The notes below the pieces were generated by a model. It worked only from the letters and a program-made list of their open reading frames with translations, was not told the DNA's origin and made no database searches. Below, in pieces: positions 39,796 to 41,100 of a stretch of DNA of 64,000 nt (positions are counted from its first letter, which is position 1; the number at the start of each line of letters is the position of its first letter). This DNA comes from Qipengyuania sp. JC766 (GTDB lineage: Bacteria; Pseudomonadota; Alphaproteobacteria; Sphingomonadales; Sphingomonadaceae). The stretch spans positions 868,001 through 932,000 of the forward strand of contig NZ_JBFEFL010000001.1 of NCBI RefSeq assembly GCF_040717445.1, written 5' to 3'. Made by a program: the position numbers and the translations under genes.

Positions 39796-40374
39796 TCAGA
39801 AAAGGCGCAGCCCCGCCGCATCCGCCAGCACCCAGGCGCCGATCAGCAGGAACAGCAGGGCCGCCACGATCCGCACGAGCCGGAGCGACACCCGTTCGAT
39901 GATCGCATGGCCCAGATACACCGCCGGTACGTTCGCCAGCATCATGCCCAGCGTCGTGCCCAGGGTCACCAGTGCCACGCTCTGGAATTGGGCGCCCAGC
40001 GCGATGGTCGCGATCTGCGTCTTGTCGCCGATCTCGACCAGGAAGAAGGCGATCGTCGTGGTCAGGAAGGCGCCAAAGCGCGAGGGCTTCGGCTCTTCGT
40101 CCTCGTCCAGCCTGTCCGGCACCAGCGTCCACAGCGCCATGGCGATGAAGCTGGCCCCGACGGCATAGCGGAACCACGGACCGGCCAGGACATCCGCAAT
40201 GGACTGGCCGAGGAAGGCGGCGATGCCGTGATTGGCGAGCGTCGCCACGAAGATCCCGGCAACGATCGGGACCGGTTTGCGAAACCGGGTGGCCAGGACG
40301 ATGGCGAGCAGCATCGTCTTGTCGCCTATTTCGGCGAGTGCCACCACCAGTGCGGAGGTAATCAGGGCTTCCAT
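39796..40374 (-). CDS. TMEM165/GDT1-family (UPF0016) Mn2+/cation exporter
   Basis: 192 residues, six hydrophobic segments in two homologous halves. Each half carries the family signature E-x-G-D-K-T: ALAEIGDKTML near residue 15 and FLVEIGDKTQI in the second half. Characterised bacterial members export manganese. The leader contains a yybP-ykoY Mn2+ riboswitch (40447-40556), which strongly supports a manganese role. ATG 40374 is preceded by GGAAG. Confidence 0.92.
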   Translation of the reverse strand: MEALITSALVVALAEIGDKTMLLAIVLATRFRKPVPIVAGIFVATLANHGIAAFLGQSIADVLAGPWFRYAVGASFIAMALWTLVPDRLDEDEEPKPSRFGAFLTTTIAFFLVEIGDKTQIATIALGAQFQSVALVTLGTTLGMMLANVPAVYLGHAIIERVSLRLVRIVAALLFLLIGAWVLADAAGLRLF

Positions 40375-40387
40375 CGAAAAACTTCCG

Positions 40388-40432
40388 GGCCGGGCGACAA
40401 GACGACAACGACACCACGCCTTCCGCCCGGCC
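40388..40432 (-). promoter_or_regulatory. expression-platform hairpin of the Mn2+ riboswitch
   Basis: GGCCGGGCG (40424-40432 read on minus) and CGCCCGGCC (40388-40396) form a 9-bp stem between the aptamer and the start codon. On the transcript it is followed by CGGAAGTTTTTCG, so it could act as a terminator (T-run) or hide the GGAAG ribosome site. Which one applies is not decided by sequence. Confidence 0.55.
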
Positions 40433-40446
40433 GGACGAAAGCAGGT

Positions 40447-40556
40447 GTCATTGGTCTTGCCCGGACGGTGACCGTCCCGCCTGCGCCATGGCCTCTCGGC
40501 CAAGTATGTTGACGCAGGGAACCGCGCTGGACGCGGCGGGCTACTCCCCAGATGAC
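40447..40556 (-). promoter_or_regulatory. yybP-ykoY manganese riboswitch
   Basis: On the minus strand the RNA opens GTCATC-TGGGGAGTAG, contains GCGTCAACATACTTGG and closes GGCAAGACC-AATGAC. GGGGAGUAG, the GUCAACAUAC internal segment and CAAGACC are conserved parts of this Mn2+-sensing aptamer. The outer stem GTCAT/ATGAC plus TGG/CCA closes it, and CCCGCC/GGCGGG forms an inner stem. Binding of Mn2+ is expected to switch on the GDT1-family exporter downstream. Confidence 0.88.
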
Positions 40557-40677
40557 GGGCGCCCGGTATCAGGCGAACGTTGCGATGGCAACGGGGTGGT
40601 CAGTAGCCCATCAGTCCGACGCGTTCCCGGTATAATCGGGAACCCGCGCCTACCCGACGACCATCCTTCCCGCGCGA

Positions 40678-40998
40678 CTATGCCGGCGTGGAAATCTTCA
40701 TCAGGACCAAGCCGGATACGATGAGCACGGCTGCGCAGACCCTGGCGAACGTCAGGGCTTCCCCGAAATAGGCGATTCCGATGATGAAGGCACCAAGCGC
40801 CCCGATCCCGGTCCAGATCGTGTAGGCGGTACCAAGCGGCAGCAGCTTCATCGACCAGGCGAGCAGAGCGAAGCTCAGCATCATGGCGACCGCCATCGTC
40901 ACTGTCGGCCAGAACCGCGTGAATCCGTCCGACTGCTTCATGGCAGTCGCCCAGACAATTTCGAACAATCCCGCGAGAAGAAGGGCAATCCACGCCAT
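40678..40998 (-). CDS. gdx: SMR-family guanidinium exporter (Gdx/SugE type)
   Basis: 106 residues, four transmembrane helices. The essential Glu13 is present (LAGLFEIVWATAMK) and the Gdx-type segments GFTRFWPT and LPLGTAYTIWTGIGALG match E. coli SugE/Gdx more closely than EmrE. It should export guanidinium by proton exchange; some members also pass quaternary ammonium compounds. ATG 40998 has a perfect AGGAGG site. A structured leader precedes it. Confidence 0.87.
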   Translation of the reverse strand: MAWIALLLAGLFEIVWATAMKQSDGFTRFWPTVTMAVAMMLSFALLAWSMKLLPLGTAYTIWTGIGALGAFIIGIAYFGEALTFARVCAAVLIVSGLVLMKISTPA

Positions 40999-41016
40999 TA
41001 CGGCCTCCTGCAAACG

Positions 41017-41100
41017 CCGGGCCGTCCCGGTCTTGAATTCCAGAGGCGGGAACGTGGTCTCCGCGCCTATTTTCTAGCCGGAACGGCGCGAGAATTCAAG
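41017..41100 (-). promoter_or_regulatory. structured leader of gdx with an ACGG-capped hairpin
   Basis: On the transcript: CTTGAATTC (41092-41100) pairs with GAATTCAAG (41032-41040), enclosing an inner stem CGCGCC/GGCGCG. One base later comes CCGGG-ACGG-CCCGG (41017-41030). Hairpins with ACGR loops are the units of guanidine-II (mini-ykkC) riboswitches, which often control sugE/gdx, but those need two units and only one is seen here. Confidence 0.45.

Follow-up and report, generated by a model that had tools for sequence, protein, structure and literature searches.

Introduction

Among the yybP-ykoY Mn2+ riboswitches, that of Escherichia coli mntP is described as translational, with a ribosome-binding site that is masked without Mn and freed with Mn (PMC11647493). 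In Vibrio cholerae and V. parahaemolyticus, the exporter gene mneA is reported to be induced by Mn (PMC7380456; PMC13274385), with an increase of about 39-fold at 1 mM Mn; the account of the V. parahaemolyticus RNA-seq describes no drop-off at the riboswitch and leaves the mechanism open, and it also places yrbG of V. vulnificus under a yybP-ykoY riboswitch (PMC13274385). The yybP-ykoY riboswitch of Lactococcus lactis is presented as a transcriptional ON switch, in which a helix termed P1.1 competes with a terminator (PMC11087558).

Here we describe a leader from Qipengyuania sp. JC766, located in a 64,000-nt stretch of contig NZ_JBFEFL010000001.1 (positions 868,001 to 932,000 of the forward strand; hereafter the window, in whose numbering all coordinates are given unless another locus is named). 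The leader has the same aptamer class as E. coli mntP. As with Vibrio mneA, which belongs to another branch of the phylum, a GDT1/UPF0016 exporter gene stands behind the yybP-ykoY element, whereas the E. coli switch controls MntP, for which the window's genome gave no match. Our overall reading, to which we assign a probability of roughly 0.78, is that of a Mn2+ riboswitch that precedes a GDT1-family Mn2+ exporter gene and controls it mainly at the level of translation.

Results

An intact aptamer upstream of a GDT1 gene

The Rfam covariance model for the yybP-ykoY Mn2+ riboswitch (RF00080; gathering score 45 bits) matched window positions 40562-40378 on the minus strand with 56.9 bits (E 2.3e-12), and the match, which is the single one in this genome of 2.70 Mb, spans the whole model (1-177). 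A search of this kind had been proposed in the earlier note, which described a readable aptamer core with closing stems; the score lies above the curated cut-off, and all of the named parts are in place on the minus strand. The aptamer (40447..40562, -) consists of P1, the L1 core GGGGAGUAG (40549-40541, -), the hairpins P2-P4, the L3 core GUCAACAUAC in the P3 arm (-) and the CAAGACC segment (40459-40453, -). The conserved L1 (GGGGAGUAG) and L3 (CAACAUAC) cores are intact, with 0 mismatches to the motif. The closing helix P1 is formed by the 5' strand GUCAUCUGG (40548..40556, -) and the 3' strand CCAAUGAC (40447..40454, -), with GUCAU-C-UGG giving 8 pairs. When P1 partners were swapped at random among 60 representative leaders (see below), 0 of 2000 swaps were as good as the strands' own partners, while the comparison with the nearest relative's partner gave no edge (15 better, 17 worse and 23 ties; 55 representatives).

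Between the end of the P1 3' strand at 40447 and the ATG at 40374 lie 72 nt, close to the 73 bases given previously. This ATG opens a gene of 192 aa (39796..40374, -) for a GDT1/UPF0016 (MneA/TMEM165-like) cation transporter, as the earlier note had recognised: the translation matches PF01169 (E 3e-42, 143.3 bits, cut-off 27) and holds two EIGDKT motifs. Taken together, these data identify the element, almost certainly, as a Mn2+-sensing yybP-ykoY riboswitch linked to a GDT1 gene. We infer Mn2+ export by the predicted transporter from its family and its riboswitch, a more cautious statement than the "direct sequence evidence" of manganese handling that had been claimed.

Elsewhere in the window's genome, Nramp, like MntP, gave no match, and TerC gave three matches above the cut-off, without a second RF00080 match anywhere in the genome. 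A second, weak GDT1 match was also seen (G000:C1:1869683-1869895, L115; 26.9 bits, or 27.3 with its neighbours), which, given the lack of a second RF00080 match, is not accompanied by one. Directly upstream of the riboswitch, on the same strand, lies a gene for an SMR-family (small multidrug resistance) transporter (40678-41013, -; PF00893), which we take to be SugE/Gdx-like. Between this gene and the riboswitch, an inverted repeat, GTTCCCG-GTATAAT-CGGGAAC (40623-40643), was noticed by eye and might be an operator or what is left of a terminator. A search of 40300-41100 for promoter consensus sites, uninformative for this bacterial group, found 0, and a search by sequence for a solved structure of a relative returned none.

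Distribution of the riboswitch among GDT1 genes

Relatives were taken as the best 80 GDT1 proteins among the matches listed. The aptamer core motif was found upstream in 55 of these 80, and 24 of the 80 had no RF00080 match at E 0.1; one leader (L072) had an RF00080 match, though it was among the 25 without the core motif. The closest GDT1 by protein among the matches listed (L002, 81% identity) had no RF00080 match at E 0.1. At E 0.001, and with strict filters by which weak matches are lost, RF00080 was found in 56 of 149 genomes of the same bacterial family, with 33 reaching the cut-off, and was not found in 93. A GDT1 gene lies downstream in 25 of the 29 RF00080 loci besides the window's own, and the order of riboswitch then GDT1 recurs in 80 further leaders. 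Since a review places the UPF0016/GDT1 gene under a yybP-ykoY riboswitch in 328 of the 333 screened strains described as having such a gene (PMC7380456), the pairing is a known rule, and the 24 of 80 relatives without a match represent its less usual side.

Other arrangements were also seen. At L085, RF00080 precedes a sodium/calcium exchanger gene (PF01699); at L096 and L101 it precedes exchangers that resemble, by eye, that of L085, and all three loci carry, close to the start, a pair resembling GGCCGGGC/GCCCGGCC. In another genome of the same bacterial family (L104), RF00080 stands before an MntP gene (PF02659, 8.2e-45). At L073, a sub-threshold match to the SAM_alpha riboswitch (29.3 bits, cut-off 36) follows the GDT1 gene at positions 1737-1813 of that locus.

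A predicted two-state platform between aptamer and start codon

The 81 leaders with a GDT1 gene were reduced to 77 distinct ones by dropping L071, which has a long insert, and merging 3 identical copies; 60 representatives at <80% identity were taken from these, and the 54 alphaproteobacterial ones that were kept form alignment A1. Left out of A1 were L058, L060, L068, L070 and L076, which are not alphaproteobacterial or have another platform type, together with L100. Among the 77 leaders, the stretch from CAAGACC to the start codon is strongly conserved.

In the window, this stretch can form an anti-P1 hairpin, H1 (40407..40452, -), which was absent from the earlier note. H1 captures the 3' strand of P1, common to both helices, plus the bases that follow it, and pairs AAUGACACC (40452-40444) with GGUGUCGUU (40415-40407); atop it sits an inner stem, I1, of CUUUCGUCC (40441-40433, -) with GGGCGGAAG (40428-40420, -). 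A second hairpin of 9 bp, H2 (40388..40432, -), pairs GGCCGGGCG (40432-40424) with CGCCCGGCC (40396-40388), at the position where a 9-bp hairpin had already been noted. H1/I1 and H2 are mutually exclusive, I1 using part of the 5' arm of H2. The 3' arm of H2 abuts the ribosome site (SD) CGGAAG (40382..40387, -), which follows H2 directly and stands 7 nt before the ATG; GGAA or GGAG occupies the same position in most of the aligned alphaproteobacterial relatives.

The unconstrained minimum-energy fold of the window's leader holds H1 and not H2 (z -3.0 versus shuffles). In A1, whose omissions flatter the pairing counts for H1, H2, I1 and the I1a:SD pairing considered below, as well as the RNAalifold result, 96.1% of cells were paired for H1, with double changes in 7 of its 9 pairs, and RNAalifold found H1. 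Each measure of H1 covariation lay above all 500 shuffles (0/500), and slid controls had 27-48% of cells paired (maximum 48.1%). For H2, 93.6% of cells were paired (slid controls 31-49%), 4 of 9 pairs had double changes and 16 cells were doubly changed; the number of pairs with double changes was reached by 32 of 500 shuffles, the other measures by 0 of 500. I1, with 82.4% of cells paired, had weaker support than H1 and H2. When strands were swapped between species among the 60 representatives, 0 of 2000 swaps were as good as the own partners for H1, I1 or H2. Compared with the nearest relative's partner in 55 representatives, the own partner was better in 37 and worse in 15 for H1, better in 36 and worse in 17 for I1, and better in 25 and worse in 14 for H2. 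The window's sequence keeps all 27 pairs of the three helices.

Folding under constraints gave a corresponding picture. With P1 forced, the probability of H2 exceeded 0.5 in 55 of the 77 leaders; with P1 forbidden, that of H1 exceeded 0.5 in 69, and both were true in 48. Without ligand, the H1 state was the more stable in 76 of the 77 (median difference 12.7 kcal/mol), so the choice between P1 and H1 would be expected to fall during transcription. In the growing transcript of the window RNA, P1 had the advantage or lay within 1 kcal/mol until a length of 150 nt; from 154 nt on, H1 was ahead by 3.0-14.0 kcal/mol. These comparisons of sequences and predicted folds argue strongly for a two-state platform, in which P1 together with H2 would alternate with H1.

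We found no earlier description of an H1/H2 platform in the literature searched, which was mostly outside subscription papers. The RF00080 consensus extends as far as a 3' element, ccccggccc, in alignment with the 3' arm of H2, whereas its structure line holds none of P1, H1 and H2. In folds of E. coli mntP without P1, the 3' strand of P1 is likewise caught in a long downstream (anti-P1) hairpin, and both leaders have CCCCGG near the SD. In the description of the L. lactis riboswitch, P1.1 is the switch helix, for whose 3' strand a downstream hairpin competes, as for the window's P1 (PMC11087558); the rival hairpin described there is an intrinsic terminator, whereas H1 and H2 of the window both lack a following U-tract.

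Proposed mechanism and direction of the switch

We propose that the 3' strand of P1 would pair either with the 5' strand of P1, an arrangement compatible with H2, or with the downstream strand in H1, which is incompatible with H2. Mn2+ would stabilise P1 during RNA synthesis, before the partner strand of H1 emerges from the polymerase; H2 would then form and block the growth of H1, and the 5' strand of P1 would stay within the aptamer. Without Mn2+, H1 would win, and the 5' strand of P1 and the core (UCUGGGG) would be freed for pairing with CCCGGA at the ribosome site, leading to low translation and perhaps to low Rho-dependent elongation. The outcome would be an exporter gene that is ON with Mn2+. 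We retain this direction because the published switches of the class are described as turning ON with Mn2+, and by this analogy it is likely that Mn2+ turns exporter expression on.

Masking of the ribosome site by the 5' strand of P1 is a more tentative part of the scheme, and we regard it as possible but doubtful. For the P1 5' strand against the SD, 27 of 2000 swaps did as well as the own partners among the 60 representatives; two alphaproteobacterial sets, with 55 and 21 members, gave counts of 82 of 2000 and 687 of 2000, respectively. The pairing was in the top 5% of windows for 24 of 55.

The switch direction was also sought from the accessibility of the ribosome site, in three ways, and this approach was abandoned when the E. 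coli mntP control, a known ON switch, read in the wrong direction (opening 6.6 with P1 versus 4.8 without). Since this control fails, the accessibility folding is no evidence on direction either way. With that limit, opening of the SD plus start in the window came to 8.7 kcal/mol with P1 versus 6.4 without, while the SD alone (2.5 versus 2.7) and the start alone (3.1 versus 4.1) leaned in the opposite direction. Opening of SD plus start was cheaper with P1 in 30 of the 77 leaders (21 of 60 representatives), by a calculation that likewise reads the wrong way on mntP. The mean probability that the SD is unpaired, from folding that fails on the same control, was 0.22 with P1 and 0.30 without over 62 of the 77 leaders, the other 15, in which no SD was recognised or no constraint was usable, having been dropped. 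For E. coli alx, the opening calculation gave 4.8 with P1 and 4.6 without.

The same aptamer and platform could act in the inverse sense, with Mn2+ holding P1, H2 extending through a pairing of I1a with the SD (CUUUCG with CGGAAG), and the gene OFF. With P1 forced, the SD indeed pairs with I1a with a mean probability of 0.51 over the 62 leaders, and the window's SD is unpaired with a probability of 0.08 with P1 versus 0.37 without; however, the folding behind these values has the sign wrong for E. coli mntP. The I1a:SD pairing, moreover, has no sign of co-evolution: 204 of 2000 swaps were as good among the 60 representatives, as were 580 and 290 of 2000 in the alphaproteobacterial sets. Its cells were 66.3% paired, and its 3 pairs with double changes were fewer than in every shuffle. 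Cover of the SD by I1a was rejected on this lack of co-evolution. An inverted switch would, in addition, make a Mn2+ exporter fall as Mn2+ rises, contrary to the published examples as they are described, and we consider it unlikely. A wider idea, which we hold to be similarly improbable, is that alphaproteobacterial GDT1 leaders share a bistable, purely kinetic switch in which the SD-abutting H2 would lock the Mn2+-bound P1 state against the far more stable H1; in the boldest form of this idea, Mn2+ would shut the gene.

H2 could also be read as an intrinsic terminator, making the leader a transcriptional switch like that of L. lactis. Terminator-type switches of the class are on record (PMC11087558), and H2 is a strong, GC-rich hairpin. 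The window has a UUUUU run, but the tail after H2 reads CGGAAG and then UUUUU, so the run starts 6 nt past the stem, inside the spacer between SD and start. Across the family, 0 of the 77 leaders had four U that began 5 nt or less from the H2 stem; a stretch of four or more U no further than 12 nt from H2 was present in 12 and absent from the other 65. With the SD standing 0-3 nt after H2, the hairpin cannot have a U-tract next to it and keep the SD. A pattern scan for terminators found no site at H2. Furthermore, H2 belongs to the P1 state, so that termination there would mean OFF with Mn2+. An intrinsic terminator was rejected as a feature of the family (no near U-tract in any leader, and no scan site), and for the window itself we consider it very improbable; of what the earlier note had proposed for this hairpin, a real, conserved and covarying structure stands, the intrinsic terminator does not, and a cover of the ribosome site is a possibility. 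A decayed or chance RF00080 match without regulation, to which the patchy occurrence of the riboswitch (24 of the best 80 GDT1 relatives listed and 93 of 149 family genomes without a match) might point, is scarcely credible against 56.9 bits (E 2.3e-12), intact L1, L3 and P1, and the full set of 27 platform pairs in the window.

Discussion

Read as a Mn2+ riboswitch that acts mainly on translation of a GDT1-family exporter gene, the leader is one more switch of a kind already known, and knowledge of the class is unchanged by it. If the boldest, inverted form were true, some yybP-ykoY members would be OFF switches. The covarying platform gives exact predictions, in terms of P1, H1 and H2, for a translational Mn2+ switch outside E. 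coli. The locus also adds one more protein of the GDT1/TMEM165 family that is tied to manganese via its regulator and, in a genome without a match to MntP or Nramp, this GDT1 protein may be a main safety valve for Mn2+.
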